A DNA stretch of 64,000 nucleotides from Algoriphagus aquimarinus (GTDB taxonomy: Bacteria > Bacteroidota > Bacteroidia > Cytophagales > Cyclobacteriaceae), in contig NZ_VORW01000002.1 in NCBI RefSeq assembly GCF_007997215.1, forward strand, positions 558,001-622,000, written 5' to 3'. The number at the start of each line of letters is the position of its first letter. The first letter of the stretch is position 1. A program made the translations under genes and the position numbers. Positions 897 through 64,000 of this stretch are shown here, one piece after another. The notes under the pieces are model-generated. The model worked only from the letters and a program-made list of their open reading frames with translations, had not been told where the DNA came from and did not search any database.

Positions 897-3800
897 ATGA
901 TGCTTAAAAGCAATACAGTTTTTGAAATGCTATCCAATATGCGTGAGTATTTTCAGAAGGGTAATTCCTTTCTGAATTCAAATGCATCAGACCCTATACG
1001 ATCAGAATTATACAATTTTAATCAAATGAACGCCCATGCCGAAATAGTGGCCCGTTCGCACCAGATATTTAAAGGGAAAAGGGAGGATAAGCTTTTAAAA
1101 AGATTGGATGACAATGAAAAAACCCTCGTGGACGTACGTAACCTGTTGGTTGAAAGCATCCAATCCGGGCAGTCAATCACTCCAGCAGCAGAGTGGCTGT
1201 TAGACAATTTCTATTTAATAGAAGAACAAATTGTAACGGCGAAAAAACACCTCCCTAAAAAATATAGCGAAGGATTACCGTATCTGGCGAATGGGAATTC
1301 TAGCGGTATGCCCAGAGTTTACGACATCGCTCTAGAGATAATTTCACACAGTGATGGTCATGTAGACTCTAATGGATTAAGAGGCTTTATATCATCCTAT
1401 CAAACAGAGAAAATCCTTACGCTGGGAGAACTATGGGCTATCCCGATCATGCTAAAACTTGCTGTCATAGAGAACCTAAGAAGGATAGCAGAAAATACAG
1501 CTCTTGACATGATTGACAATAATCTAGCAGATTATTGGAGTGATCAAATGATAGAAACAGTCAATAATGATCCTGCTGATCTAGTATTGACCATCGCTGA
1601 TATGGCGAGATCAAAGCCTGTTTTGAATAGTCCTTTTGTTGCTGGATTTACTCGCAAACTTCAAGGAAAGGGTCCCACGTTTGCTTTACCAATCAGCTGG
1701 CTAGAACAGCAGTTATCCAAAGTAGGAATAGCAGGAACAGACCTAGTTTGGAATGAAAATCAAAAACAAGCTGCTGATCAGGTATCAGTAAAAAACAGTA
1801 TAGTCACATTGAGATTTATAGGTTCAGCTGATTGGCGCAAATTTGTTGAAGTATCAAGCATAGTTGAGCAAACCTTAAGGAAGGATATTACAGGAATTTA
1901 TGCACAATTAGACTTTGCAACCAGAGACAGGTACAGGCATGTGATTGAATCTATCGCGGCACACTGTCCTCTGTCCGAAACAGAAATTGCTGAGAAAACT
2001 ATTGAATTAACAAAAAGACATCCTTTAGATAAGGACCGTTTTTCTAGAGAACAACATGTAGGGTATTATTTAATAGGTAAAGGTTTAGTCGTATTGCGGA
2101 AAGAATCGCAGATGCGCTATACTATTAAACAAACATTGACCAGCTTCATGGAGAAAAGGCCAGTGTTTATTTATCTTTTTTCAATTGGAATTCTTACGCT
2201 ATTCATCGCTCTGGGCATGCTTTCTATAGCCTGGATCTATGGAGATTTCAGTGCGTTCATCTTGTTCTTGGTGGGTGTATTATGTTTGGCAGGTGGCGCA
2301 CATCTGGCTATTTCCTTCACTAACTGGTTGGCAACGATTTGGGTAAAACCAAGAATTCTGCCAAGGCTGGATTTTTCAAATGGTATCCCAATAGAATACC
2401 GCACGCTTGTAACTATTCCTACGATGCTTTCGAGCAAAAATGAAATTGAAGAGAATGTTGAAGCGCTTGAAATTCGGTTTTTAGCAAATCGAGAGAAAAA
2501 TTTATACTTCAGTTTATTAACAGATTTTACTGATGCGGACTCTGAGACAAAGCCTTATGATCATCTTTATGTCGATTTGGTAAAGGAAAGAATTCGACAA
2601 TTGAATGAGAAATATAAGCAAAGTGAACAGCCAGATATTTTTTATCTTTTTCATCGCCCTAGAAAATGGAATCCTAAAGAAGATAAGTGGATGGGGTACG
2701 AGCGCAAGAGGGGAAAACTCTCTGCTTTAAATTCTCTTTTAAGAGATGGTACTAGAGATGAGTTTAGTCATATAGTTGGTGATTATAGTGCCCTGAAAGG
2801 AATAGAATATGTAATCTCTCTTGATTCAGATACTCAACTTCCAAGAGAAGCAGCTTGGAAATTGATCGCCACAATGGCCCATCCCCTAAATCACGCCGTT
2901 TATGACGAAAGCAAAAAACGAGTCTTGGATGGCTATGGAATTCTTCAACCTAGAGTAGCTTCCGATTTTCCTAAAAATAAAACTTCCCTCTATCTACGTT
3001 TACAAGGGGACATGAAAGGTATTGATCCATATACCAGGGCATCCTCTGATGTTTACCAGGATATTTTTGAGGAAGGTTCTTTTATTGGAAAGGGCATCTA
3101 CGATGTGAATGTGTTTGAAACTGTCTTAAGAAATCGTTTTCCTCAAAACCGTATTTTAAGTCATGATCTCTTGGAAGGTTGCTATACCCGCTCAGGCTTG
3201 GTAAGCGATGTTGTATTATATGAGAACAATCCTTCACATTATGAGGCAGATATAAAACGGCATCATCGCTGGATCAGGGGAGACTGGCAAATAGCTTCAT
3301 GGATATTGCCTTTTGTAAGAAATGCAAGCGGAAATTTGGTTACAAATAATCTTTCTATTTTATCTCGTTGGAAAATAGCCGATAATCTTCGTAGAAGTTT
3401 ATTGCCCATTTCTCTACTATTAATCTTAGTCCTTGGTTGGTCCATATTACCAAAACCCTGGTTTTGGACACTTGCCGTCACCATAATAATATTGTTACCT
3501 GTGATGGCTGCAGCATTTCTGCAGTTGTTTCACCGTCCAGAGGATTTGGACTTTAAGGCTCATATTACCGATGTAGGTAATTCGGTCAAGGAGGTATTAT
3601 TACGCTTTATGTTTGGAATAGCAATATTGCCCTATGAGGCTTACCGCTTTACAGATGCTATATTCCGAACTAACTGGAGAATGCTTGTAAGCGGAAAAAA
3701 ACTATTGGAATGGACACCCTCCGCCACTGCTTCCAGCCAATCAAAAAATAGTTTATGGTTCATTTCTAGGAAAATGTGGATAGGGCCAGTTTTAGCGTTT

Positions 3801-6800
3801 CTGTGTCTCTTACTATTTCTAAACTCCAATTCACCTGCATTTTTTGTTTCCATACCTATTCTCATTTTATGGTTTCTATCCCCTTCTCTTGCTTGGAGAT
3901 TAAGTCTTGTAGAGAAAGAGAATGCACCAAATCTTAACCTAGATGAAAAAATATTTCTGCGTAAAACAGCAAGAAAAACATGGGGTTTTTTCGAACACTT
4001 TGTAAATGAAGGAGAAAACTGGCTTCCTCCTGACAATTTCCAAAAACACCCAGACCCTGTAATTGCACACAGAACATCTCCAACAAATATCGGCCTGTCA
4101 TTGCTTTCAAATCTGACGGCCTACGACTTCGGGTATATTGTGATGGATGAGGTGGTTTTGAGGTGTGGCAACACGATTAAAACTTTAAATAAAATGGACC
4201 GCTATAAAGGTCATTTTTATAATTGGTATGACACTCGCTCCTTATCAATTCTGAGGCCTTCCTATGTGTCTACGGTTGATAGTGGAAATCTGGTGGGACA
4301 TCTTTTGATTTTGCGTCAAGGGATTCTAGCTTTCAAATCCAAACCCATTTTCAATATAGAAAGCTATAAAGGTATACATGCTACACTAGGAGTGTTTCGG
4401 GATTTGTTGAAGGAAAGTACTCAAAATATAGAAGATTTAGAGAATTCGCTGGTTAAGGCTATTCGTAAAAAAAGTAATTCCTTATCAGTTATAAAACAAA
4501 ATTTGGATGAGCTGGCAGCCCTGAGTGAGAAGATAAGTGATTATGATGAGCACACTGAAATAGGTAAGTGGGCCCTAAATTTAAAAAATCAAATTAAAAA
4601 TATACGGGAAGATTTATATAGTCAGATTCCGTGGCTGAAGTTATTACCTATTCCGGATTCGTTTACTAGTCTATCCAAAATGGATTACAATCATTCGCTT
4701 CTCACTCTTCAGGAAGTAAGTGTTGACCTGACTTCGCAGATTGAACAATACAAAAAAGAGACAAGTCAAGAGTCAGACTTTGAATGGTTGATCAAAGTAG
4801 AATCTATTCTTGAAAACGGTCTTGATTTTATTCCGGAAAAACTCAGACTACTCGAGGAAATGGCTGAGGAACTGGAGCAATTTAGTATAGTAGAATATGA
4901 TTTTCTACTCAACAAAGACACCAGTCATCTTTCGATTGGTTATAATGTGGACGAGCTGAGAAGAGATGAAAGCTTTTATGATATGCTTGCGTCAGAAGCT
5001 AGGTTGGGCATTTTTGTAGGTATTGCTCAAGGATTATTGCCACAGGAAAGCTGGTTCTCTTTAGGGCGTTTATTGACTGAATCAAAAAATGGTCCTGTTC
5101 TCCTGTCATGGAGTGGGTCTATGTTTGAATATTTAATGCCGCAGTTAGTAATGCCAACCTATGAGAATACGCTGTTGCATGCGACAAATCGGGCCATGGT
5201 AAAAAGGCAGATAGATTATGCTACAAAACGCGATTTGCCTTGGGGAATTTCGGAATCCGGCTACAACAGGGTGGACACAAGTTTAAATTATCAATACCAA
5301 GCATTTGGAGTCCCGGGGTTAGGATTAAAGCGTGGATTGGAGGATGACCTGGTGATAGCACCCTATGCATCTATGCTCGCGCTAATGGTTTCTCCTAAAA
5401 ATGCAACATCGAATTTGAAGCTTCTAGCTGAACTAGGTTTTGAAGGAGAATATGGCTTTTATGAAGCTATAGATTATACGCAAACACGCGTTCCTCGTGG
5501 GGAAAACCATGTAGTTATCAATTCCTATATGGCTCATCATCAGGGGATGGGTTTTTTGTCTATCGCATATGTTTTAGTAAACAAACCAATGCAAAATCGT
5601 TTTGCGGCGGAACTACGTTTTCAAGCCACATTATTGCTATTACAAGAGCGCATACCTAAGACATCCATTTTTCAGGCGCATACAGCTAAAGTGAACGATA
5701 TACTTACAGCCAAAACCGATTCACAGTTAAGAATTATAAATACTCCAAATACTCCTACACCAGAATTACAGTTGTTAAGTAATGGGAATTATCAAGTGAT
5801 GGTCACAAATTCCGGAGGAGGATACAGCCGCTGGAAAAATATCGCAGTAACCAGATGGAGGGAAGATGCTATTAAGGAAAATTATGGAATCTTTTGCTAT
5901 ATCAAAGATATCAATAGTGGGAATTTTTGGTCAAATACTCATCATCCAACACTCCAGCCTGCAAAGAGTTATGAAACAATATTCTCCCAGGGTACCATAG
6001 AGTTTCACAGACAAGATTTTGGTTTTGAAACCAAAACCCAAATTGTGGTATCTCCTGAAGATAATGTTGAAATAAGAAAAATAAGGATTACCAATCGCTC
6101 TCAAGTCCCCAAAGTTCTGGAAGTCACCAGCTACAGCGAGATTGTTTTAGCTTCCCAAGCATCAGATGAGGCGCATCCGGCATTTAGTAATCTTTTCGTT
6201 CAAACGGAGATCAAACCTGAATACAGTGCCATATTTGGCACTAGAAGACCACGTTCCAAAGACGAAGTACCACCTCATCTTTTCCACTTAACCGATGCCT
6301 ATGGATGTGAAGTGGAGGAAGTTTCCTATGAAACAGATAGAATGCAATTCATTGGTAGGGGAAGAACCTTAGAACATCCCTTGGCGCTGGACTCTAGAAA
6401 ATTAGCCGGCAATCAAGGTGCGGTGCTAGATCCTATCATGGCTACCAAATACCGTATTACGATTAATCCCTTTAAGACTGCTACGATAGATCTTATTTAT
6501 GGAATCTGCGAGAGCCGTGAAGCAAGTGAGGCGCTCATGCATAAGTACAGGGATAAAAACTTAAAGAAACGAGCGCTGGATCTTTCTTGGACACACAGCC
6601 AAGTATTGCTGCGACAGATCGACGCTTCAGAAGCAGAGGCGCAACTCTTTGGGAAATTGGCTGCATCTGTTATTTATTCAAATCCAGCTTTACGTGCCAA
6701 TGAATCAGTAATAAAAAGTAATTATAGGGGGCAGTCCGGACTTTGGAGCCATTCAGTGTCTGGAGATCTTCCAATAGTATTGCTACAAATAGTTGACCAA

Positions 6801-9587
6801 GAGAATCTGAGCTTGGTGTCACAAATGATTAAGGCTCATGCTTACTGGCAATTGAAAGGATTGGCCGTAGATCTGATGATCTGGAATGAAGATCATGGTT
6901 CATATAGGAATGAATTACAAGACCAGATTGTTGGAATGATCTCAGCTTTAAATACCCTAACTGGACATATTCCTGGGAAAATATATGTAAAATCTACAGA
7001 TCAAATTTCTTCTGAAGATCGAATCCTTTTTGAAAGTGTTGCAAAAATAATTATTACTGATAGTTATGGCACCTTATCAGATCAAGTATCTGGAAGGTTT
7101 AGAGAAATAGGTTCATCCCCTTTATTAGAAGTTAAGCCTCAAGTTCAAGACAAAATAGGTTTTGAAAACCTACTGCTTCCAGAGGACCTGAAATACTTCA
7201 ACGGAACAGGAGGATTCTCAGCAGACGGGAAAGAATACAAAATTAAAACTGATAGGAATACATCTACTCCTGCTCCTTGGGTGAATATTATTGCAAACCC
7301 AATTATTGGAACAGTGGTATCTGAAAGCGGTTCAGCTTATACCTGGGCTGTGAATGCCCATGAATACAGAATTACACCATGGCATAATGATCCGGTAACT
7401 GATACGAGCGGAGAAGCTTTTTATCTTCGTGACGAGGAAACTGGATTATTTTGGTCACCAACTCCTTTTCCTGCAAAAGGAGAAGCGAATTACATTACAA
7501 CACATGGATTTGGATATTCCCAGTTTGAACACGTGGAAAACGGCATAGCCTCCAAGATGAGGGTTTTTGTGGACAAGCTGGAGCCCGTTAAGTTTGTAGT
7601 GATTACAATCAAAAATAAATCAGACCGCTTGAGAAAGATTTCCTCTACAGGATACATGGAAATAGTATTGGGGAATGTGCGGTCAAAAACAAATATGCAT
7701 GTTCTCTCAGAGCACGATGTGCAAAATGAATCCCTGTTTTTTCGTAATAGATATAATGATGCATTTGCTAATCGAGTTGCATTTTTCAAACTGATAGGAG
7801 CAAGTAAATACAGTTACTCCACTGATAGGTCAAAGTTTATTGGTAGAAATAGAAATCTTTCAAACCCTCAGGCCTTAGCGCGTTTAGATCTCAGAGGAAG
7901 AATTGGGGCGGGGCATGACACCTGCGCGGCTTTGCAGGGAAAATTCGATTTGTTACCTGGAGAAGAAAGAGAGATTGCTTTTCTGATTGGAAGTGCTGAA
8001 GACACAAACTCTGTTATTAAACTAGTCCAGAAATTTTCAGACCTAAAAACTATTAATCTCTCATTTACTGAGATAAAAGATTATTGGAATGAAATAATTG
8101 ATAAGGTCCAAGTTCAGACCCCTGATGAAGCATTGAATCTTTTAGCAAATGGATGGCTTACTTATCAGACTATCGCTTCCAGACTATTTGCAAGAAGCGG
8201 ATTCTATCAGTCCGGAGGAGCTTTTGGTTTCAGAGACCAGATCCAGGATGTACTATCCTTATTGCACAATAAGCCAGAACTCGCTAGAGAGCAAATACTT
8301 CTGAACGCTTCCCGTCAGTTTAAAGAAGGTGATGTTCAACATTGGTGGCATCCTCCAGAGGGAAGGGGTGTACGTACAAGATGTTCGGATGATCTCTTGT
8401 GGCTTCCGTTTGTGCTTTATAGGTACTTGAATGCCACGGGTGATATAGGGATTTTGAAAGAGCAAACAGGGTTTTTAGAATCTAGACCCTTGCATGAAGG
8501 AGAAGACTCCCTTTATGATTTGCCGGTAAGTGGAAGTTTAATTGCTGATTTGTACCATCATTGCCGTTTAGCAATTATACATAGTCTCCGTTTCGGAGAA
8601 CATGGTTTGCCTTTCATGGGTTCTGGCGATTGGAATGACGGAATGGATCAGGTAGGGAATGAAGGTAAAGGAGAAAGCGTTTGGCTAGCATTCTTCTTTT
8701 ATGATATTCTGTTGAATTTTGAGAAAGTCGCCAATAATTATGGCGATGTAGAGTTTGCATCAACTTGTAAACAAGAGGCGATTCAATTGCAATCAAATAT
8801 CGAAAGATCGGCATGGGACGGTGAATGGTATCAGCGCGCTTGGTTCGATGATGGAACACCCCTCGGTTCAAAAGTTAATGAAGAATGTAGCATAGATGCG
8901 ATCTCCCAAAGTTGGTCAGTTTTGACAAATGCCGCACCTGAGGAAAGAAGAAATCAAGCTATGGATTCCTTAAATAAATATTTGGTGAATAGAGAGATGA
9001 AAATCATCCAGCTGCTGGATCCTCCATTCGATAAATCTGATTTGAATCCAGGGTATATCAAAGGTTACGTGCCAGGAGTTAGGGAAAATGGAGGGCAATA
9101 TTCCCATGCTGCTATTTGGACCTTGATGGCATTTGCAGCGCTAGGTGATCGAGAGCGAACCTATGAACTCTTTAGTATGATCCAGCCAGTGAATCACGCT
9201 TTAAATAACGAAGATGTACAGATTTACAAGGTGGAGCCTTATGTGATGGCAGCTGACGTGTATGCAAATGAAACCCATCGTGGCCGTGGAGGATGGACTT
9301 GGTATACTGGTTCTGCTGGATGGATGAATCAATTTATAATTGGTTCCTTACTGGGGATGGAGCTGTTAGTAGACAAGCTCAAATTCACACCTTGTTTTCC
9401 TGAGGAATGGCCTTCAGTTACGATCAATTATCGTTTTAAAACTGCTACTTATTCTATCAAAGTTTTTCAGGCGAAAAATATGGAAGATTCGTGGTGGAAA
9501 ATAGACAATGAGCAAGGGAAAGGAAATGTGATTCCTCTTAAAGAGGATGGATTGCACCATGATGTTGAGGTTCATGTTTTAATCTAA
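897..9587 (+). CDS. ndvB: Cyclic beta-1,2-glucan synthase-like giant membrane enzyme (GT84-GH94)
   Basis: A ~2,896-residue protein with the architecture and length of NdvB/Chv-type cyclic beta-1,2-glucan synthases. Membrane segments lie near residues 424-484, 838-877 and 962-1000. The glycosyltransferase domain between the first two has a DSDTQLPRE motif (~645) and an HHRWIRGDWQ motif (~790), equivalent to the processive QxxRW motif. A glucoamylase-like domain follows (PWGISESGYN region), then two GH94-type beta-sandwich modules (~1644 and ~2145) and a C-terminal (alpha/alpha)6 phosphorylase-like domain with the GDWNDGM signature (~2579). In the known family, UDP-glucose is polymerised in the membrane and the GH94 part controls ring size. 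The start is ATG 897; TTG 891 and ATG 900 are in frame nearby. It is monocistronic, with large gaps on both sides. An osmoregulatory or surface glucan role is inferred. Confidence 0.93.
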   Translation: MMLKSNTVFEMLSNMREYFQKGNSFLNSNASDPIRSELYNFNQMNAHAEIVARSHQIFKGKREDKLLKRLDDNEKTLVDVRNLLVESIQSGQSITPAAEWLLDNFYLIEEQIVTAKKHLPKKYSEGLPYLANGNSSGMPRVYDIALEIISHSDGHVDSNGLRGFISSYQTEKILTLGELWAIPIMLKLAVIENLRRIAENTALDMIDNNLADYWSDQMIETVNNDPADLVLTIADMARSKPVLNSPFVAGFTRKLQGKGPTFALPISWLEQQLSKVGIAGTDLVWNENQKQAADQVSVKNSIVTLRFIGSADWRKFVEVSSIVEQTLRKDITGIYAQLDFATRDRYRHVIESIAAHCPLSETEIAEKTIELTKRHPLDKDRFSREQHVGYYLIGKGLVVLRKESQMRYTIKQTLTSFMEKRPVFIYLFSIGILTLFIALGMLSIAWIYGDFSAFILFLVGVLCLAGGAHLAISFTNWLATIWVKPRILPRLDFSNGIPIEYRTLVTIPTMLSSKNEIEENVEALEIRFLANREKNLYFSLLTDFTDADSETKPYDHLYVDLVKERIRQLNEKYKQSEQPDIFYLFHRPRKWNPKEDKWMGYERKRGKLSALNSLLRDGTRDEFSHIVGDYSALKGIEYVISLDSDTQLPREAAWKLIATMAHPLNHAVYDESKKRVLDGYGILQPRVASDFPKNKTSLYLRLQGDMKGIDPYTRASSDVYQDIFEEGSFIGKGIYDVNVFETVLRNRFPQNRILSHDLLEGCYTRSGLVSDVVLYENNPSHYEADIKRHHRWIRGDWQIASWILPFVRNASGNLVTNNLSILSRWKIADNLRRSLLPISLLLILVLGWSILPKPWFWTLAVTIIILLPVMAAAFLQLFHRPEDLDFKAHITDVGNSVKEVLLRFMFGIAILPYEAYRFTDAIFRTNWRMLVSGKKLLEWTPSATASSQSKNSLWFISRKMWIGPVLAFLCLLLFLNSNSPAFFVSIPILILWFLSPSLAWRLSLVEKENAPNLNLDEKIFLRKTARKTWGFFEHFVNEGENWLPPDNFQKHPDPVIAHRTSPTNIGLSLLSNLTAYDFGYIVMDEVVLRCGNTIKTLNKMDRYKGHFYNWYDTRSLSILRPSYVSTVDSGNLVGHLLILRQGILAFKSKPIFNIESYKGIHATLGVFRDLLKESTQNIEDLENSLVKAIRKKSNSLSVIKQNLDELAALSEKISDYDEHTEIGKWALNLKNQIKNIREDLYSQIPWLKLLPIPDSFTSLSKMDYNHSLLTLQEVSVDLTSQIEQYKKETSQESDFEWLIKVESILENGLDFIPEKLRLLEEMAEELEQFSIVEYDFLLNKDTSHLSIGYNVDELRRDESFYDMLASEARLGIFVGIAQGLLPQESWFSLGRLLTESKNGPVLLSWSGSMFEYLMPQLVMPTYENTLLHATNRAMVKRQIDYATKRDLPWGISESGYNRVDTSLNYQYQAFGVPGLGLKRGLEDDLVIAPYASMLALMVSPKNATSNLKLLAELGFEGEYGFYEAIDYTQTRVPRGENHVVINSYMAHHQGMGFLSIAYVLVNKPMQNRFAAELRFQATLLLLQERIPKTSIFQAHTAKVNDILTAKTDSQLRIINTPNTPTPELQLLSNGNYQVMVTNSGGGYSRWKNIAVTRWREDAIKENYGIFCYIKDINSGNFWSNTHHPTLQPAKSYETIFSQGTIEFHRQDFGFETKTQIVVSPEDNVEIRKIRITNRSQVPKVLEVTSYSEIVLASQASDEAHPAFSNLFVQTEIKPEYSAIFGTRRPRSKDEVPPHLFHLTDAYGCEVEEVSYETDRMQFIGRGRTLEHPLALDSRKLAGNQGAVLDPIMATKYRITINPFKTATIDLIYGICESREASEALMHKYRDKNLKKRALDLSWTHSQVLLRQIDASEAEAQLFGKLAASVIYSNPALRANESVIKSNYRGQSGLWSHSVSGDLPIVLLQIVDQENLSLVSQMIKAHAYWQLKGLAVDLMIWNEDHGSYRNELQDQIVGMISALNTLTGHIPGKIYVKSTDQISSEDRILFESVAKIIITDSYGTLSDQVSGRFREIGSSPLLEVKPQVQDKIGFENLLLPEDLKYFNGTGGFSADGKEYKIKTDRNTSTPAPWVNIIANPIIGTVVSESGSAYTWAVNAHEYRITPWHNDPVTDTSGEAFYLRDEETGLFWSPTPFPAKGEANYITTHGFGYSQFEHVENGIASKMRVFVDKLEPVKFVVITIKNKSDRLRKISSTGYMEIVLGNVRSKTNMHVLSEHDVQNESLFFRNRYNDAFANRVAFFKLIGASKYSYSTDRSKFIGRNRNLSNPQALARLDLRGRIGAGHDTCAALQGKFDLLPGEEREIAFLIGSAEDTNSVIKLVQKFSDLKTINLSFTEIKDYWNEIIDKVQVQTPDEALNLLANGWLTYQTIASRLFARSGFYQSGGAFGFRDQIQDVLSLLHNKPELAREQILLNASRQFKEGDVQHWWHPPEGRGVRTRCSDDLLWLPFVLYRYLNATGDIGILKEQTGFLESRPLHEGEDSLYDLPVSGSLIADLYHHCRLAIIHSLRFGEHGLPFMGSGDWNDGMDQVGNEGKGESVWLAFFFYDILLNFEKVANNYGDVEFASTCKQEAIQLQSNIERSAWDGEWYQRAWFDDGTPLGSKVNEECSIDAISQSWSVLTNAAPEERRNQAMDSLNKYLVNREMKIIQLLDPPFDKSDLNPGYIKGYVPGVRENGGQYSHAAIWTLMAFAALGDRERTYELFSMIQPVNHALNNEDVQIYKVEPYVMAADVYANETHRGRGGWTWYTGSAGWMNQFIIGSLLGMELLVDKLKFTPCFPEEWPSVTINYRFKTATYSIKVFQAKNMEDSWWKIDNEQGKGNVIPLKEDGLHHDVEVHVLI

Positions 9588-9736
9588 TTGGTACTAAGTT
9601 TTACAAACCTTTAAAAATTAGAGTTTACAACTATTAGCCAAATGTTAAGGAAGAACTGCAAATTCAAATAGGGACTCTTATTTTTTCAGAAAAGGAAATG
9701 GCATCGTAGGGCAAGCTAAAAAATATAGGTAGTTAT

Positions 9737-9821
9737 CGGGAGGAATCTCGCCTGGTTTATAATTATCCCAGTGTATGTCGCTCTCGACATGCCTGTCTGC
9801 CTTAGGCAGGCAGGCTCGATT
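9737..9821. repeat. Dispersed repeat related to 40390-40456, interrupted by a hairpin
   Basis: The order GGAATCTCGC, TGGTT-TATAATTAT, CCAGTGT, GACATG, CTCGATTTCAT is shared with the segment upstream of degP at 40390-40456. Here a CCTGTCTGCC/GGCAGGCAGG hairpin is inserted between GACATG and CTCGATTTCA. That implies nesting of one repeat inside another. Confidence 0.6.
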
Positions 9822-9970
9822 TCATCTGAAGCAAAAATACTTAAAATAGAATAAGCTCAGCGGAGGACAAGGTGTTAAGAAATCTTCCTTAAGAAGATTT
9901 TGGACATGGGCCCGGAAGGCAAACCCTAATCAGTCCCGATAACAATCTGACTACACCTAGGTGAGGGGGT
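9822..9970. repeat. Structured dispersed repeat, family A, copy 1
   Basis: The first ~80 bases match 12337-12416 with only about three differences. The element contains a perfect 8-bp stem (AAATCTTC 9880-9887 with GAAGATTT 9893-9900). It ends with a block (CAGTC...ATCTGACTACACCTAGGTG) that recurs at 12440, 53250, 54390 and 56450. Five copies occur in this window, always between genes. It is likely a structured RNA/DNA element or non-autonomous mobile repeat; its function is unknown. Confidence 0.8.
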
Positions 9971-10036
9971 GAGGTCAACCACCAAAGCTGGAGCCAGACA
10001 CTCAAGCCAAACCCGCGATATCATTCATTCTACAGT

Positions 10037-12340
10037 TTAAACACCCACACTCTCCTTCAATAAAGATGTCACTAGCTCAACGGTTAATGCTTTCTTGTTC
10101 GCCTTTTCCCGGAGGGTATCAAAAGAGTATCTAAAGTCACATCCTTCTTTGTAGGCACTGCATCCATAAGCTGTTTTACCTCTTATTATTGTTCCTTTAT
10201 TGCACAATGGGCAGGGAATGACTGGAGGCGTTTTTTTAGAAGACTTAGCTACTTTCTTTTCTTCCAAAACGAGTTGAAAATGATCATTGAAACGTATCAA
10301 TCCTTCTTTATCTCCTGTCGTCGTTTTAAATCCTTTCAAGTTGACAGTAGATCCTTTCTGGAGCAAACGTAAATACTGATTCTCTGATATATTCTTTCCT
10401 TCGTACGAAAAAGGAAGTAAAAAGTCGCATCCGGTTTTATAGGCGCTGCATCCGTAACTCGATTTTCCTTTGAGCAGCGAGCCTTCCTTGCATTTTGGAC
10501 AAGAGCTTCCCACTATCGCAGTTGCAGTTGTTGATTTTTCTTTTTCAGGAACCTTGGTTTCAGTGCTGTGAGATATTTTAGCATGGCTTTCTTCCCTGAT
10601 AACTTCGTAGACCAAATGCTCCACCATACTTTTCATGTTCTTCACAAAAGAGCCCGCGTTAAAATTCCCTTTTTCTATCTCTTTCAATTGTTTTTCCCAC
10701 TGCCCTGTGAGTTCTGCAGAGGTCAGCAGGTCATTTTTAATGATATCGATCAATTGCACTCCTGTTTCGGTGGGCAAAATTTGCTTTTTATTCCGTTCAA
10801 TATATTGTCGCCTGAACAGGGTTTCAATAATATTTGCCCGAGTAGAAGGACGACCAATGCCATTCTCTTTCATTAACTCCCGCAACTCTTCATCGTCAAC
10901 TTGCTTACCGGCAGTTTCCATACCTCTTAACAAAGTCGCTTCAGTATATTGATGAGGAGCTTTGGTTTCTTTCTCCAGGAACGAAGGTTCATGCGGCCCT
11001 CTTTCTCCTTTAGTAAAGAGCGGGAGCTCATCTTTCTCCTTTTTATCTTTGCCGTCAGCAGTTTCAAAAACAACCCTCCAGCCTTTTTCTAAAATGACTT
11101 TCCCGGTTGTTTTAAACGGAACCGTATCCACTTTTCCTAATACTGTGGTATTGGCCACCAAACAATCATCATAAAACACGGCGATGAATCTCCTGGCAAT
11201 AATATCATATACTTTTAAGTGATTCCCGTGCAAACTGCTTTGAATTCCTGTAGGAATCATGGCATGGTGATCGGTTACTTTTTTATCATTGAAAACCTTG
11301 GTAGACTTTTTTAATTTTTTGCCCAAAAGTGGTTGAGTCAACGAGTTATAATTCGTTAGCTTCTCTATAATTCCTTTTGCTTTGGGGTAAATATCATTCG
11401 GTAAAAAAGTGGTATCCACTCTTGGGTAGGTGATTAATTTCTGTTCGTATAGTTGCTGCGCTATCTTAAGTGTTTCATCGGCAGAAAGGCCAAACTTATT
11501 ATTGCAATACACCTGTAATCCTGTCAAGTCAAAAAGCTTAGGTGCGTAATCCTTCCCTTTTTTATTAGCAATGGAGACGACTTCAAAGTCATGTTCTTTT
11601 ACCACGTTGGCAAAAGCCTCACCATCTTCTTTCTTTAAAAATTTCCCTTCTTCACAATTAAATACGGTCTCTCTATACACCGTTTGTAATTCCCAAAAAG
11701 GTTGTGGCTGAAAATTTTGAATTTCTTTAAACCGGTTAACAATCATAGCCAGTGTAGGCGTTTGGACTCTACCGATGGACAGTACCTGTTTGTATCCGCC
11801 ATGTTTCACCGTATATAAGCGCGTGGCGTTCATTCCCAACAGCCAATCCCCGATTGCCCGGGAATATCCAGCATAATACAAATTATCGTACTTAGCAGAA
11901 GGTTGGAGTTTTTCGAAGCCTTCCTTGATGGCTTCTGTGGTCAAGGATGAAATCCATAAGCGTTTGACTTCCCCTTTATACTCCGCTTGTTCAATTACCC
12001 ATCGTTGGATCAGCTCTCCCTCTTGTCCAGCATCACCACAGTTGATAACTAGTGTGGCTGTGTCAAATAGCTTTTTTACAATGTCAAATTGCTTCTTGAT
12101 CCCTGCATTATTAACGATTTTAGTTTTGAACTTTTCGGGAAGCATCGGAAGGTGACTGAGGCTCCAACTCTTCCAATAGGGGTCATAATCGTTCGGCTCA
12201 AATAAGGTACAAAAGTGTCCGAAGGTATAGGTAACTATATACCCATTCCCCTCATAATATCCATCGTGCCTAGTATTAGCTCCTAGAACAGAGGCAATTT
12301 CACGGGCTACACTTGGTTTTTCAGCAATACAAACGATCAT
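10037..12340 (-). CDS. topB: DNA topoisomerase III (type IA)
   Basis: A 767-residue type IA topoisomerase. It has an N-terminal Toprim domain starting IAEKPSVAREIASVLG, with the acidic motif DAGQEGELI near residue 107. The core contains SIGRVQTPTLAM (~190) and the active-site tyrosine motif TYPRVDTTF (~310). Two C-terminal cysteine modules (near 620 and 713) follow the pattern CPxC...GCSAYKxGCDF. The family passes single strands and resolves replication or recombination intermediates. ATG 12340 is chosen over in-frame TTG 12349, because the ATG lies directly before the IAEKPS motif. The start codon falls exactly at the edge of a family A repeat. Near-identical copies of that repeat lie on both sides of the gene, so it may have arrived as a cassette. 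Such genes are common both on Bacteroidota chromosomes and on their conjugative elements. Confidence 0.95.
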   Translation of the reverse strand: MIVCIAEKPSVAREIASVLGANTRHDGYYEGNGYIVTYTFGHFCTLFEPNDYDPYWKSWSLSHLPMLPEKFKTKIVNNAGIKKQFDIVKKLFDTATLVINCGDAGQEGELIQRWVIEQAEYKGEVKRLWISSLTTEAIKEGFEKLQPSAKYDNLYYAGYSRAIGDWLLGMNATRLYTVKHGGYKQVLSIGRVQTPTLAMIVNRFKEIQNFQPQPFWELQTVYRETVFNCEEGKFLKKEDGEAFANVVKEHDFEVVSIANKKGKDYAPKLFDLTGLQVYCNNKFGLSADETLKIAQQLYEQKLITYPRVDTTFLPNDIYPKAKGIIEKLTNYNSLTQPLLGKKLKKSTKVFNDKKVTDHHAMIPTGIQSSLHGNHLKVYDIIARRFIAVFYDDCLVANTTVLGKVDTVPFKTTGKVILEKGWRVVFETADGKDKKEKDELPLFTKGERGPHEPSFLEKETKAPHQYTEATLLRGMETAGKQVDDEELRELMKENGIGRPSTRANIIETLFRRQYIERNKKQILPTETGVQLIDIIKNDLLTSAELTGQWEKQLKEIEKGNFNAGSFVKNMKSMVEHLVYEVIREESHAKISHSTETKVPEKEKSTTATAIVGSSCPKCKEGSLLKGKSSYGCSAYKTGCDFLLPFSYEGKNISENQYLRLLQKGSTVNLKGFKTTTGDKEGLIRFNDHFQLVLEEKKVAKSSKKTPPVIPCPLCNKGTIIRGKTAYGCSAYKEGCDFRYSFDTLREKANKKALTVELVTSLLKESVGV

Positions 12341-53476: not shown

Positions 53477-54355
53477 ATGTTAAATTGGCTATTTGGGAAA
53501 AAACCTTCAGGACAAAGCAAAACAGGCATTTATAAGGTGGATAATCGAGCTTTAGTCGAACTGGAGGAAAGTCCTGGGAATGGATCTGTTAATTCTATTA
53601 TTGAATATTTAGGATTTGATACAAGTCAAGTTCATACGGTTTTCACTTTTGACTCACCATTGATTGAGATTATAGGTTTTAAAGTTTTTACCGAAAAACC
53701 GGTTTTTGCTGTAGCAAAGAATAAAGCAAGGAGAGTTGATTTAGGAAGCTTGAATAAGGAGATTAAAGGTATTGATTGGAGATACGAATATTCCAGTCAC
53801 ACAGTTGAGGATACTTTAACTGAAGGTATTGAGAGAGAATCATTCTCAATTGACTTTTTAAGCTCAGTGCTTTTACTTAAGCATGAAGGGGACGATCTTT
53901 ATCAAGCTCCGAAAATTGGGCTTTATTTAAAGTTTGAAAATGGGTTATTAAAAAGCTTTACCTCGTCTGATTGGTCAAACTCTGCATCCAAATGGTTGAA
54001 AGATTTCAATAGTGACATGTTTGAAGATATGCTATCCGAGGCAATGCAATACCATAGAAATGAGATCGAAGCCATGGAAGAAGTAAATTTGCAATGTGAA
54101 TCACTAAGAGGGATCCCGCAGGCTATTCAAAATGAGTTCATATACCTTCATGAAAAAGTCAACGGTAACATCAATTTTTTCAATCTGTTGGCAGCACACT
54201 ATAATCTACTTGATGGTGAAAGGATAAAAATAGATGATTTCAAAACTGTCAATAAGGGCAGATTTGTGGCTATTGAAGAAAATATAGTTAAAGTCGATCA
54301 GTTTGCCTTTCGGTTTGACACAGATGGGTTTCTTTTGGATGCTAAAACCAACTAA
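53477..54355 (+). CDS. Conserved-looking protein of unknown function (292 residues)
   Basis: A cytosolic mixed alpha/beta protein. A hydrophobic-basic start (LNWLFGKKPSG) is followed by a strand-rich first half (VHTVFTFDSPLIEIIGFKVF, KPVFAVAKNKARRV) and a helical second half (DMLSEAMQYHRNEIEAMEEV, QNEFIYLHEKVNGNINFFNL). No catalytic motif or family is recognised. It lies between two family A repeats and next to the Mrr gene and the DUF488 pair, so it may be part of the defence island. Full length and good ORF quality support it as a real gene. Confidence 0.7.
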   Translation: MLNWLFGKKPSGQSKTGIYKVDNRALVELEESPGNGSVNSIIEYLGFDTSQVHTVFTFDSPLIEIIGFKVFTEKPVFAVAKNKARRVDLGSLNKEIKGIDWRYEYSSHTVEDTLTEGIERESFSIDFLSSVLLLKHEGDDLYQAPKIGLYLKFENGLLKSFTSSDWSNSASKWLKDFNSDMFEDMLSEAMQYHRNEIEAMEEVNLQCESLRGIPQAIQNEFIYLHEKVNGNINFFNLLAAHYNLLDGERIKIDDFKTVNKGRFVAIEENIVKVDQFAFRFDTDGFLLDAKTN

Positions 54356-54440: not shown

Positions 54441-54562
54441 AGCTGATTAGGACTAGAGAATATGGTATGGCGAATTTTGAGACAGATATAGCCGCCTTAT
54501 TTGTTGAATTATATAGAGAGCTTTCATCTTAATAAGAAGTAAGGGCTACCTTTGCAGAGATT

Positions 54563-55450
54563 ATGATGTATTACAGAAGGAAAATAGTAATGGCGATTTT
54601 GGAAGCCTTTGGAGGTGAGCTAGAAAAACTTCAGCTTCAAAAGTTACTCATGCTTTTTACTACCTACCAACAGGAAAAGAGTTTTCATTTTGTTCCCTAT
54701 AAGTTTGGCTGTTTCTCATTTCAGGCAAATGCGGACCTCTCTACAATGAAGAAGTATGAGCAGGTTACCGAAGGAGAGAAAACATGGAGAAAACTAGATC
54801 AAACGTCTTATTGGCAAGTTCTAAAGCCGGAGGATAGATTAGCAGTTACCAAACTGAAAACGAAATTTGAGGGAAAGACTTCCAGAGAACTTATTCGCTA
54901 TACCTACGTCAATTTCCCCTATTATGCCATTAATAGTACGGTAGCAGAGCGATATCTGAATACAGCGGAAATGGAAATAGTTAACGCTAAGAAGCCTCTA
55001 TCAGCCAAAAAGGTGCTTTATACCATCGGATATGAAGGAATTAGTTTGGAAGAATACATAAACAAACTTCTGGCTGTTGATGTCAAGGTACTTTGTGATG
55101 TGAGAAAGAATTCCTTAAGCATGAAGTACGGCTTTAACAAATCCCAATTACAAATGGCTTGTGATGGTGTTGGGATACGGTTTTTACATATTCCTGACGT
55201 TGGAATAGTTGCTGACAAAAGAAAGGAACTAAATACCCAGAAGGATTACGATATACTTTTTGAAGACTATAAAAAGACAGTCTTACCTGAGACGATATCG
55301 CGACAGGAAGAAATACTGGAATTGATTAAAACCCATGACAGGGTTGCTATCACCTGCTTTGAGGCAAATATTTGCCAGTGCCATCGCAAGCATTTGGCAG
55401 AGGCAATTTGTGAGCTTCCCTCCTTTGATTATGAACTGATACACTTGTAA
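54563..55450 (+). CDS. DUF488 protein with N-terminal Panacea/SocA-like domain
   Basis: A 295-residue two-domain protein. The N-terminal ~130 residues (KIVMAILEAFGGELEKLQLQ, KLLMLFTTYQQ, FVPYKFGCFSFQANADLSTM) resemble the small helical Panacea/DUF4065 fold by the 'L.lqKLL...yKfGcfSf' pattern. From ~153 a DUF488 domain starts VLYTIGYEGISLEEYINKLL. It contains LCDVRKNSLSMKYGFNKSQL, LNTQKDYDILFEDYKK, and the cysteine motif TCFEANICQCHRKHLAEAI (~264-283). DUF488 has no established biochemical role. The Cys-His cluster is its most conserved feature. The next gene starts three bases after the stop, so the two form a two-gene unit. Confidence 0.8.
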   Translation: MMYYRRKIVMAILEAFGGELEKLQLQKLLMLFTTYQQEKSFHFVPYKFGCFSFQANADLSTMKKYEQVTEGEKTWRKLDQTSYWQVLKPEDRLAVTKLKTKFEGKTSRELIRYTYVNFPYYAINSTVAERYLNTAEMEIVNAKKPLSAKKVLYTIGYEGISLEEYINKLLAVDVKVLCDVRKNSLSMKYGFNKSQLQMACDGVGIRFLHIPDVGIVADKRKELNTQKDYDILFEDYKKTVLPETISRQEEILELIKTHDRVAITCFEANICQCHRKHLAEAICELPSFDYELIHL

Positions 55451-55453
55451 GCT

Positions 55454-56296
55454 ATGCCCAGAGAGAAAATCCTTTTGACTGTCACCACTTATCCTTTGCC
55501 TTCAAGAAGCTATGATGAATTGGTTTGTACTGCAGGGATGAGAGAGGATGGCACTTGGATCAGAATTTACCCTATGCCACTCAGTTATCTCAAAGGAATG
55601 AAATCTACGGGCAAAGTTAAATCCAGAAAATATACATGGATAGAGTTGGATCTGGTAAAACGAACTGATGATTTTCGTCCGGAAAGTTATTCTCCTAAGG
55701 ATTATGAGTTTAAAGATATTGTAATAGGAGATACAATAGACACCAAAAACAACTGGAAAGTCAGGAAATCTATTTGTCTTCAAAATGTATATACCAATCT
55801 TACTAAGCTTATAGAAGATTCAAAAGCCCCTAAGAATGTTTCTTTGGCAACTTTTAAACCTACAAAGATCAATCGCTTGATCATTCAGAAGGATGAGGCT
55901 GATTGGAAACCTGTATGGAAAGCCCTTCAAAAGCAAATGGATATGTTTAATGAACCCAAAGCAGAAGCAAAAGAAGCATTTCCGAAAGTTCCTTGGAAAT
56001 TCAAGTATGAATTTGAAGATGATGAAGGTAAAGTCTCCAAGCTTATGATAGAGGATTGGGAAATTGGGCAGCTGTACTGGAATTGTCTCGAAGGTGCTAA
56101 AGGAGATCCACAAATCGCTTTGGAAAAAGTGCGGCAGCAATACGAAAAGAATTTTTTGGAGAATAAAGATCTTTATTTTTTTCTCGGTACTACCAAAGAA
56201 TGGCATACCCGCAGAGCAAATAATCCATTTGTTATAATTGGAGTATTTTATCCTATGTTACCACCCAAGCCTGATCCTACCCCATTGTTTGGCTAG
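55454..56296 (+). CDS. Unknown partner protein of the DUF488 fusion (280 residues)
   Basis: A cytosolic protein with a characteristic N-terminal stretch: LLTVTTYPLPSRSYDELVCT, AGMREDGTWIRIYPMPLSYL and YTWIELDLVKRTDDFRPESY. The end, WHTRRANNPFVIIGVFYPM, looks like a buried strand with an arginine pair. I recall similar proteins encoded beside DUF488 genes in other genomes, without a characterised function. The 'GMREDGTWIRIYP' segment looks like a PUA/ASCH- or EVE-type beta core, but that is speculative. The three-base spacing from the DUF488 gene suggests a functional pair. Confidence 0.7.
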   Translation: MPREKILLTVTTYPLPSRSYDELVCTAGMREDGTWIRIYPMPLSYLKGMKSTGKVKSRKYTWIELDLVKRTDDFRPESYSPKDYEFKDIVIGDTIDTKNNWKVRKSICLQNVYTNLTKLIEDSKAPKNVSLATFKPTKINRLIIQKDEADWKPVWKALQKQMDMFNEPKAEAKEAFPKVPWKFKYEFEDDEGKVSKLMIEDWEIGQLYWNCLEGAKGDPQIALEKVRQQYEKNFLENKDLYFFLGTTKEWHTRRANNPFVIIGVFYPMLPPKPDPTPLFG

Positions 56297-58004: not shown

Positions 58005-58020
58005 GTTTACTATAGTAAAC
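58005..58020. promoter_or_regulatory. 16-bp perfect palindrome, likely operator of the HTH regulator
   Basis: GTTTACTATAGTAAAC is a perfect 16-bp inverted repeat ending eight bases before the ATG of the 68-residue HTH protein. That is the position where controller (C) proteins of restriction systems bind to autoregulate. No experiment supports it here. Confidence 0.7.
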
Positions 58021-58027
58021 AAAATAT

Positions 58028-58234
58028 ATGGGTATTAAACAGACTTTTGGGCAGAAAGTGAATGCCTTAAGAAAAGGTAAAGGCCTATCGCAGGAGGACT
58101 TATCAGAAAAGTCCGGGATCAATCGTCCCTACATCTCGGCCATAGAGCAGGGGAAGCGAAATGTCTCGCTCGAGGTAATGGAGAAGCTCGCTGAAGCATT
58201 GGAAATTCACATTAAAGTACTCTTTGAAGAATAA
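58028..58234 (+). CDS. Small XRE-family HTH regulator, controller-protein-like
   Basis: A 68-residue protein that is essentially one Cro/C1-type HTH domain: FGQKVNALRKGKGLSQEDLS, then EKSGINRPYISAIEQGKRNV (recognition helix) and SLEVMEKLAEALEIHIKVLF. Its size, lack of other domains and the palindrome directly before the start resemble the C proteins of restriction-modification operons. It overlaps the TTG start of a broken Vsr gene by 11 bases, so the two were cotranscribed. It is divergent from an unknown gene pair. Confidence 0.85.
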   Translation: MGIKQTFGQKVNALRKGKGLSQEDLSEKSGINRPYISAIEQGKRNVSLEVMEKLAEALEIHIKVLFEE

Positions 58235-58575
58235 ACCCTACATAAGACCCAAAATAGCAATCCCCCAATTCTGCGAGGAGAATGGCTTTTACACCACCAA
58301 AGGCAGGTCTTTCAATATGTCCCAAATCAAAGGAAAGGACACCAAACCGGAAAAACTCCTGAAGAAAGCCTTATGGCAAGCAGGAGTGAGGCATAAAACT
58401 CAAAAGAAGCCTCTATTTGGGAAACCTGATGTCAGCCTCAAAAAATACAAACTGGTCATCTTTGTAGACGGGATCTTTTGACATGGATACAACTGGGAGG
58501 ATAGGAAAGAAGCCATCAAATCCAACAGGGAATTCTGGATCGCCAAGATCGAACAGAATAGAATCAGAATGAGGC
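58224..58575 (+). pseudogene. vsr: Broken Vsr-like DNA mismatch endonuclease
   Basis: From TTG 58224 the frame reads YIRPKIAIPQFCEENGFYTT, MSQIKGKDTKPEKLLKKAL, FGKPDVSLKKYKLVIFVDG and then IF-stop-HGYNW. The TGA replaces the tryptophan codon of the FWHG motif that is intact in the copy at 61409. The frame resumes as EDRKEAIKSNREFWIAKIE, after which the last third is replaced by unrelated sequence. It is therefore doubly dead: nonsense plus 3' loss. It overlaps the HTH regulator gene. Confidence 0.85.
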
Positions 58576-61408: not shown

Positions 61409-61879
61409 TTGAGTCAAAGACCCTACATAAAACCCAAAATAGCGATCCCACAGTTCTGCGAGGAGAATGGCTTCTACACCACCAAAGCTCGATCCTACAA
61501 TATGTCGCAAATTAGGTCAAAGAATACCAAACCTGAAAAGCTTCTAAAGAAAGCCTTATGGCAAGCAGGGGTGAGGTATAAAACTCCAAAGAAGCCATTA
61601 TTTGGGAAACCGGACATCAGCCTGAAAAAACACAAACTTGTCATCTTTGTAGACGGCACCTTCTGGCATGGCTACAACTGGGAAGAGAGAAAAAACACCA
61701 TCAAATCCAACCGTGAATTCTGGATAGCGAAGATCGAACGCAATATGCAGCGGGATCTGGAAGTCAATGACTACTATCAATCAAAAGGCTGGACTATAAT
61801 GAAGTTTTGGGATTTTGAGGTGAAAGGGGAGTTGGGAAAGGTTTTATATCAAATCTTAACAGCTACTTCTAATATTTAA
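61409..61879 (+). CDS. vsr: Vsr-like very short patch repair endonuclease (intact)
   Basis: A 156-residue protein from a TTG start. The upstream-homologous copy also begins at TTG, supporting this choice. Motifs of the family are MSQIRSKNTKPEKLLKKALW (~31-50), GKPDISL (Asp ~69), VIFVDGTFWHGYNW (His ~87) and FWIAKIERNMQRD, then GWTIMKFWDFEVKG. Vsr nicks 5' to a T:G mismatch arising at methylated cytosines, and usually accompanies a C5 methyltransferase. The zinc-ligand cysteines around the FWHG motif of E. coli Vsr are not present here. It converges on and overlaps the AIPR gene end by 11 bases. No methyltransferase is visible in the window. Confidence 0.88.
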   Translation: MSQRPYIKPKIAIPQFCEENGFYTTKARSYNMSQIRSKNTKPEKLLKKALWQAGVRYKTPKKPLFGKPDISLKKHKLVIFVDGTFWHGYNWEERKNTIKSNREFWIAKIERNMQRDLEVNDYYQSKGWTIMKFWDFEVKGELGKVLYQILTATSNI

Positions 61880-64000
61880 CCCCAAACTTCTTCAATTTTT
61901 TAATTGAAATATCAACTATTTCCAACCGTTTTAAATCAATATTTTCCTCTCTCTTAATTTTCTGGAAAACTGTTTTTATTACACTTAATTCATTAAATCC
62001 TAAAGTTTGAGTTTGCTCTCCCAGATCAATAATTCTTTTCCAGTCATCATTACTCAATCTTTTTAGTCTATTGTATAATGCAACAGGGTCTATAATTTCT
62101 TTGTCATTTAGTTTACTAAGAGCTATAACTTTTTCAAAATCTATTTTTTTCATTGTCAAAAAGTCTACTATATCAGATCCCTTTTTTATAAGTTGATCAG
62201 TCATAGTACCTGATTCTCTTAATATCTTTTTTATCATCGAAACATTACTGTGCTGATAATTTGACAAGACATCAGTATTTAAATTATATAAGGATAAACC
62301 ATCCCAAAACCGAATCCCGAGTGAAGTAATCTTCTGCAGTTTATTGTACTTTTCAGCTTCTTCTATGTCCGAATGATCTGATTCATACCGGATTTTAAAT
62401 GCGCTATCACTTATTAAGTATTTATTATTTCCATGTTCATAGGATAAACCTTCTTTTCAGTTAAGCTCATCCAGGTTTTTTCAGATTTTGCTGCTTCACT
62501 TATCAAGGCAACATTTAGACTATTTAAAAAGTCATACACATACTTCATCCCTTTTTTTAGTTCTAATTGGAGCTCATCAGGTATTGTCTGTGTTTCCCAT
62601 ATTTTTTCAAGATTTAGAAGATTGCCTGTTAGGAAATGTAAATAAGATAAAGAATAGGCTACAGTCTGAGATTTAATGTTAGTATCCCCAATTGGATTTT
62701 GATTTTTCCTACCAAATAATTTATCCGTGACTTGAAATAGAATAGCATTTGCTACAATATCCTGCCAGTAAACACGACCTGGTTTTTTCTTTTTGTGTTT
62801 TTTTTCAATCTCTTTGAGAAACTGATTGTAATTTTTCTGAGCACCTTTAGCGACATGGAAAGGTTGTAGCCCATAGATATTCAAGTATTTAGCAATCTCT
62901 GATTTTACGATTACTTGATTACGAGGATATTTGAGTTTAAATGCATCCTGTTTTCCTTTTGTAGGTTCCTTATTCAGTGCTTCTCTATATTGCCCCTTAA
63001 CACGTTCAAGAAACCAAATAGTCTGTTTATTACTATCATCGGGATCAATGGCGAATGTGGTTCTAGATAACTCTTCAAGTCTCTGAAGAAATGGGTTGTT
63101 GGAGGTTAGGTCGAGCTCGGAAACAGGGTTCTGAGAATTTGCATACCGGGAAATGAAAGGTACGGTTTCGTTCTTTTTATCTTCATCCTTAATTACCGTT
63201 AACTTCATCTGAACAAAGACCTGTGATAAGTCAGATTTGTATTTTTTTTCCGTATGAAATAGAGAAGCTGTTGTCTGACCTCCATTCACAATCTGAAAAT
63301 CTTTTACTCCGGTAATTACGAACTGGCCATCTTCTTGTATTTCGGTCTTTACTTCTTGGGCTGTAGTTGCTATCCCGTTATTATAAGGCAAAAACATATA
63401 GGGTTCCTGCCTGATTGTTTCTCTAATCCCTTTATTGATTTTACCGTTTTGTTGAAGAAATGCTCTCACATTGCTTTCCAATAGCCTCGTGCCGTAATTT
63501 TTGTAGAGAGTAGAAAGTACTGTGCCTGGCATGATTGCGAGATAGCATTCATATAAGCTATTTTCAGAAGGCATTGCCAAGCAAGGAATGGAAATACCTA
63601 ATGTTTTTCTGAAATCAATTTCTATTGGTTCGCGATTGTATTTAGACTGGGATAGTCTGTGAAGCCTCTCTGCATCCCAAACATGAAAGTTAAAGGTTAA
63701 ATCTTCAAGGCCTTTTACACTAAAATTAGTGGGAGGATCATGCGGGATATTTCCATTTGAAAGAATAAAAACATTAACACGAATAATTTCTTTATGGTTA
63801 TCTCTGATGAGCGAAGCAAGGCCATATGCCTCAGTTGAAGGTTCAATATCCTGTAGATGGCCTTTAAATGCGGCATTAAGGAATCCAACTGGCCACTTGA
63901 TCAGTTTGTCAAATTCTGGTTTACCTAATCTATATAGTTGGTTAGTATCTAAATTGTGTGTAATAAATATGTCCAATGTTTCAAACCCTTCCTCAATTGC
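61869..64000 (-). pseudogene. AIPR-family (abortive infection phage resistance) gene, frameshifted, 5' end outside window
   Basis: The upstream part (to 62414) reads through the window edge and has the AIPR core: MFLPYNNGIATTAQEV, then ITGVKDFQIVNGGQTTASLF and YANSQNPVSELDLTSNNPFL. It stops soon after KTWMSLTEKK. In the next frame the sequence continues KEGLSYEHGNNKYLISDSAF, SLGIRFWDGLSLYNLNTDVL, SNYQHSNVSMIKKILRESGT and on to 61869. This looks like the C-terminal domain of the same protein. Adding one A to the AAAA tract near 62452 (CTGAAAAGAAGG) restores a single frame. AIPR proteins accompany restriction-type and abortive infection systems, often with methyltransferase and Vsr genes. A sequencing error cannot be excluded. 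Confidence 0.75.

Follow-up and report, generated by a model that had tools for sequence, protein, structure and literature searches.

The catalogued candidate system PDC-M19 pairs a SocA/Panacea-like DUF488 protein with a predicted tandem-OB protein carrying clamp-binding-type motifs

The DNA analyzed here, which we call the window, is a stretch of 64,000 nucleotides from Algoriphagus aquimarinus. It contains two genes on the plus strand, designated A and B, whose products are 295 and 280 amino acids long. They lie where an initial annotation of the same DNA had placed a two-gene unit, with three bases between the stop codon of A and the ATG of B. The locus has the following features:

54467..54532, plus strand: relic of the 3' end of hsdR, a type I restriction subunit gene
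54547..54554, plus strand: putative internal promoter element, TACCTTTG
54563..55450, plus strand: gene A, encoding a SocA/Panacea-like domain and a DUF488 domain
54584..54931, plus strand: Panacea/SocA-like domain of A with the fold of the DarG C-terminal domain (residues 8-123)
55046..55405, plus strand: DUF488 domain of A (residues 162-281)
55355..55387, plus strand: conserved C265-x-E267 ... C273-H274-R275 cluster of DUF488
55454..56296, plus strand: gene B, encoding a predicted tandem-OB protein with clamp-binding-type motifs
55454..55786, plus strand: predicted OB fold 1 of B (residues ~1-111)
55784..56269, plus strand: predicted OB fold 2 of B (residues ~111-272)
55934..55948, plus strand: internal clamp-binding-type motif of B, QMDMF (residues 161-165), modeled at low confidence and likely in a flexible loop
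56267..56293, plus strand: C-terminal tail of B, KPDPTPLFG, degenerate here (QxxLF in most homologues)

Both proteins match PADLOC profiles over nearly their full length, A to PDC-M19A (E = 2.7e-123) and B to PDC-M19B (E = 1.3e-114), and the genes lie in the same adjacent order as the two profiles, on one strand and 3 bp apart. The pair is therefore not the new one that the initial annotation had hypothesized; the accompanying suggestion that it is toxin-antitoxin-like is the best-supported reading of it. In PADLOC, PDC-M19 is the name of a predicted phage-defence candidate for which no mechanism is given, and our literature search found no paper that names it. We did not find a domain and motif analysis of A and B in PADLOC. 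The architecture of this catalogued candidate, well supported overall, is what becomes newly visible here. Each protein also matches a PHROG family of unknown function.

The AlphaFold model of A is confident (pLDDT 94.4, pTM 0.91). Its C-terminal part belongs to DUF488, as the initial annotation had recognized: the Pfam family PF04343 is matched with an E-value of 7e-21, and by 90 of 90 homologues. The motif CQCHRKH pointed out earlier occupies residues 271-277, and the C-E-CHR residues are intact in the window and invariant in the 90 homologues, 88 of which match the Pfam model 'Active DUF488-N3 subclade'. In VIA comparisons the modeled domain resembles the N-terminal domains of tetrapyrrole methylases (Z 10.2) and dual-specificity phosphatases (Z ~8.9), a likeness of general alpha/beta architecture only. 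To our knowledge, the DUF488 family is widespread and has had no function assigned to it, and we know of no role for it in any antitoxin.

The separate N-terminal domain of A, previously described as resembling Panacea/DUF4065, has support from both profile and fold comparisons. The Pfam family PF13274 (SocA_Panacea) is matched directly by 22 of the 90 homologues (best E = 1.4e-4); the window protein itself has no Pfam match to this family. Residues 8-123 align with Bacteroidota Panacea proteins in hhalign over 109 columns (93% probability, E = 3.3e-7), and the negative controls were flat, with both the DUF488 part of A and protein B giving nothing against Panacea. Residues 2-139 of the model match the DarG C-terminal domain (7yk3) over 136 residues, with a VIA Z of 12.5, an rmsd of 3.2 and a Foldseek probability of 1.00. 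Because profile comparison with the same DarG domain gave nothing (0.5%), the link between A and DarG is structural only. Searches of PDB sequences with the alignments of A and of B gave no matches.

This domain departs from the standard antitoxin at its signature. PMC8832971 describes a GPV signature as critical for neutralization in PanAT systems. In A, the glycine (G49) is invariant, and cysteine stands in place of the proline and tyrosine or phenylalanine in place of the valine (G-C-[YF]), so the domain is a divergent relative rather than a standard PanA. We conclude that the N-terminal part of A has the DarG C-terminal fold and is a distant member of the SocA/Panacea antitoxin type. As in the PanAT systems of PMC8832971, a gene with a Panacea-type domain adjoins a variable partner; in contrast to them, A has G-C-[YF] for GPV and a fusion to DUF488, a name with 0 occurrences in the main text of PMC8832971, and a partner of B's OB/clamp kind does not appear in the passages of that paper that we consulted. 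DarTG offers a second comparison, in which the C-terminal domain of DarG inhibits the toxin DarT by direct contact (Deep 2023, as cited in PMC12170906). A shares that fold, whereas it has DUF488 in place of a macrodomain, and B is no DarT (it has no Pfam match). The N-terminal domain of A is basic (median pI 9.2), unlike a nucleic-acid mimic, and mimicry of single-stranded DNA, as proposed for the DarG domain, is therefore disfavored for A.

Pfam has no family for B of the window, and a scan of 79 B homologues returned nothing credible. The AlphaFold model (pLDDT 86.1, pTM 0.85) has two successive OB-like domains. The leading Foldseek matches are RPA, HIN, CST, Teb1 and the Oxytricha telomere-end-binding proteins, with E-values of 5e-5 to 4e-3 (5e-5 to RPA, 4e-4 to HIN). 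The VIA alignments give the first domain Z-scores of 7.1-7.5 to OnTEBP, BRCA2, SOSS1 and the HIN domain of IFI16, and the second 6.5-7.1 to RMI1, the C-terminal OB domain of RPA70 and POT1. These values are middling, 7.5 being the maximum, but the top of the list consists mostly of OB proteins that bind single-stranded or other DNA, so B likely contains two OB folds and may bind single-stranded DNA. The modeled domains align with those of RPA, telomere-end-binding and HIN-200 proteins; unlike these, B is bacterial, has no sequence similarity to them and carries clamp motifs in addition. Both A and B are basic proteins. The earlier suggestion of a nucleic-acid-directed activity is consistent with the predicted OB folds and with the motifs described below.

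The consensus for binding the bacterial sliding clamp is QL[S/D]LF or QxxLF (PMC12309361), and B homologues have sequences of this type at two places. Among 86 full-length B proteins, the C-terminus is QxxLF in 60 and QxxLx[FL] in a further 11; by comparison, such QxxLF tails occur in 3 of 1204 other open reading frames of the same loci. The second motif is internal, around residues 161-165, with variants such as QGDLF, QTDLF and QLNLF, and across the 79 homologues it has Q161 in 78, leucine or methionine at 164 in 76 and F165 in 74. The first and fourth positions of the motifs are kept in ~95% or more of homologues. Of 29 held-out B proteins from outside the alignment, all 29 contain the internal motif and 23 the C-terminal motif. 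Both motifs lie in low-confidence, presumably flexible segments (pLDDT 55 for residues 161-170), as expected for short linear motifs. A clamp-binding-type motif, as would be looked for in a SocAB-type partner, is a property of the family, and the window copy retains the internal QMDMF with a degenerate tail that has lost its glutamine, a loss also seen in L023. As a control, one of the two Pol IV genes of the genome has QIDIF near its C-terminus, a weak sign that the host clamp uses such motifs; no motif was seen at the other Pol IV locus. The motifs suggest that B may bind the sliding clamp.

A SocA-family domain in A together with clamp motifs in B leads us to favor a SocAB-like clamp-inhibitor module. 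SocA is a Panacea-domain antitoxin (PMC8832971), its toxin SocB halts elongation by binding the sliding clamp (PMC7566177, PMC12795458), and RipA, a toxin unrelated to SocB, targets the same clamp pocket (PMC12795458). As in the type VI SocAB system of Caulobacter, in which SocB targets the beta clamp, a gene of the PF13274 antitoxin family adjoins a partner with clamp-binding motifs. In contrast to SocAB, the antitoxin domain of A is fused to DUF488 and is without GPV, and B combines two motifs with OB folds predicted in tandem. Under the SocAB-like reading, B would attach to the beta sliding clamp, using either one or two QxxLF motifs, and, if unrestrained, would occupy the clamp and single-stranded DNA and so block replication. 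The SocA/Panacea-like domain of A would touch B directly and so hold it in check, and the DUF488 domain of A could add an enzymatic or regulatory activity. Release of B, plausibly at phage takeover or upon loss of the element, would then arrest replication. In the lineage of the window, such a module would have traveled in a type I restriction operon and outlasted it. We infer toxicity of B, its binding to the clamp and single-stranded DNA, neutralization by A, a phage trigger and phage defence, and we hold the SocAB-like reading tentatively, as our preferred one that is nonetheless a little more apt to fail than to stand. Several features weigh against it: the replacement of GPV, the size of B, which is large for a toxin, an OB assignment made on middling Z-scores, the window's C-terminal motif without its glutamine, and the presence of DUF488, which is without a known antitoxin role.

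In nearly all loci A immediately precedes B, typically with a gap of -4 to +12 bases, and the pairing is far beyond chance. Distances among A and among B proteins are correlated (Mantel r 0.71 over 79 loci; 0 of 2000 permutations). This joint inheritance also suits the main rival, in which the two proteins form one effector complex: B would sense, or be recruited to, single-stranded DNA and the clamp at (phage) forks and would bring a catalytically active DUF488 domain to DNA or nucleotides, the Panacea-like domain serving only as glue between A and B. The invariant catalytic-type residues C265, E267, C273, H274 and R275 speak for an active domain, as does the match of nearly all homologues to the 'Active' subclade model, and the complex would accord with the predicted single-stranded DNA binding by B, the basic character of both proteins and the listing in PADLOC as a phage-defence candidate. 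We consider the effector complex unlikely, and the pattern of loss described next tells against it.

In about 15 cases A is intact and the B next to it is either broken or missing. There are 11 disruptions (L011, L067, L091, L092, L094, L096, L152/L153, L159, L174, L175 and G686, the sister genomes L152 and L153 being counted as one event) and 4 absences (G482, G541, G766 and G879). A disrupted A beside an intact B was found once, in an incomplete draft genome (L018/G082). For disruptions alone, 1 of 12 is on the A side (two-sided binomial p = 0.006). In-frame stops account for at least four of the breaks in B; assembly errors may explain some of the breaks seen in draft genomes and MAGs, a possibility that counts against the SocAB-like reading. 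If B is harmful and A keeps it in check, as an antitoxin does a toxin, one-way loss of B is what one would expect; the pattern fits less well if B is only the targeting subunit of A. Greater dispensability of B could produce the same pattern, and we take the asymmetry as only consistent with neutralization of an adjacent toxin by A. In one locus with A and without B (L171 in G482, 3074-5639), A is directly preceded by two open reading frames that resemble, by eye, a HipA-like kinase and a DUF3037 protein.

One scan with B found at least 562 relatives in genome contigs; 80 B relatives among the matches listed are mostly from Bacteroidota, with a few from other phyla. Relatives of A were found on 19 viral contigs. 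Searches of plasmid and phage collections gave matches to the DUF488 part only, and three plasmid loci that we inspected have no annotated two-gene unit of the A/B kind. Within the phylum, the presence of the pair is patchy: B was found in 20 and full-length A in 22 of 395 sampled genomes, and none of the five further genomes sampled from the same genus has A. Families are intermingled in the B tree, where the window copy groups with Algoriphagus (up to 91% identity). Patchy presence and a family-mixing tree fit horizontal spread. On viral contigs L106 and L108 (~9250-11560), A occurs without B and adjoins what look by eye like a gene for a single-stranded DNA-binding protein and a RelE/HigA-like toxin-antitoxin pair. 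At L176 (G242, 5027-6257), the genes for a DUF488-only protein and a distant relative of B converge from opposite strands, and an array of tandem repeats resembling a CRISPR lies nearby.

The initial annotation expected a defence-island neighborhood. This holds for the clade of the window, in which the pair lies inside type I restriction-modification operons, but many copies are without defence neighbors and a clade in Flavobacteriaceae sits beside metG. Most loci have no hsd genes and the pair is often solitary. In a PADLOC neighbor scan, with the top families listed, the immediate neighbors include HSDR_N at 8 and metG at 6 of 122; the families listed for genes six to seven positions away include none of type I restriction. 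The metG site is a conserved chromosomal position represented by eight Flavobacteriaceae loci (L064, L070, L073, L079, L081, L087, L088 and L091) with the pair 13-22 bases downstream, and seven B rows from metG-linked copies fall in one clade of the B tree. This clade looks vertically kept, which argues against the SocAB-like reading and speaks for another, in which B would be an extra factor for single-stranded DNA and the clamp at stalled forks, modulated by A, with no role in conflict. Clamp motifs are typical of repair proteins, and the strong purifying selection on the pair (below) would suit such a replication or repair accessory. We regard it as improbable given the patchy presence of the pair, with none in the sampled genomes of the same genus, the mixing of families in the B tree, the close association with type I restriction-modification and the occurrence on viral contigs.

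In the closest relatives (L021-L026, L028, L030 and L101), the gene order is hsdR-A-B-hsdS-hsdM as far as the contig reaches. The start of A is 6-57 bases downstream of hsdR; on contigs long enough to show it, B is followed by hsdS and hsdM. In the window, ~20 codons of hsdR are left (66 bases), and their position, frame and DNA sequence match the hsdR ends of the Algoriphagus loci L021-L023; the spacer before A also matches Algoriphagus loci. A search of the window by tblastn with the Hsd proteins of relatives gave nothing significant, and this relic is the only remnant of the operon found there. The initial annotation had listed Mrr, AIPR, Vsr and hsdM relics as neighbors. Pfam confirms Mrr_cat, Vsr and AIPR; no hsdM relic was found by tblastn, and the hsdR 3' end upstream of A takes its place. 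All N6_Mtase matches of the genome are outside the window, and other type I systems occur elsewhere in the genome. The computations show that the pair arrived inside a type I restriction operon and outlived it. A locus of the same type has decayed independently in L174 (G350, 3870-5720), with a broken hsdR upstream, an intact A and a broken B.

Compared with L021 and L022, dN/dS is 0.055-0.069 for A and 0.057-0.061 for B, and values of about 0.06 indicate that both proteins are under constraint, with strong purifying selection, which we also count in favor of the SocAB-like reading. The consensus of the Bacteroidota -7 box is TAnnTTTG. The element TACCTTTG, just before A, fits this box, and since it is common to L021-L023 in a sequence comparison, the pair probably has its own promoter. 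These results bear on the idea that the pair is an accessory of type I restriction, for example in controlling restriction or in directing it to forks, and has been left an orphan in the window. The gene order in the window's own clade, the hsdR relic and the independently decaying hsdR upstream of A in L174 agree with this idea. Selection that persists despite the loss of hsdR, the promoter-like element directly upstream of A and the absence of hsd genes from most loci make it very improbable. Both accessory readings are less likely than the effector complex.

If the SocAB-like reading is right, B would be a further, structurally different clamp-targeting toxin, carried with restriction operons and on prophage-like contigs, and the replisome would be a recurrent target in bacterial conflict. 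We know of few toxins that target the clamp (SocB and RipA). More broadly, a protein in which an antitoxin-family domain is fused to a DUF488 enzyme, and which controls an RPA-like tandem-OB partner holding the clamp by two separate motifs, would be a class of conflict module not described in the literature we searched, a prospect we think somewhat less likely than not. Such a module would halt replication forks, or sense them, from within the replisome, and DUF488 would gain its first functional setting. The clamp motifs and the antitoxin-type domain make both DUF488 and PDC-M19 testable, with two questions to ask: whether B stops replication at the clamp, and whether A restrains B.

Other genes in the window deserve mention. 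An open reading frame of 292 amino acids (53477-54355) between Mrr and the hsdR relic has no credible match in Pfam, PADLOC or NCBIfam. The AIPR-family protein at 62414-63976 best matches MzaE of the MZA system, with 323 of 1050 bits, far below the equivalog cut-off. The segments 58019-58231, 58224-58481 and 61409-61879 include two copies of vsr: one is broken and directly follows a small XRE helix-turn-helix open reading frame, and the other, 3 kb downstream, is intact; we noticed no methylase beside either. The small XRE open reading frame before the broken copy possibly encodes a controller protein.
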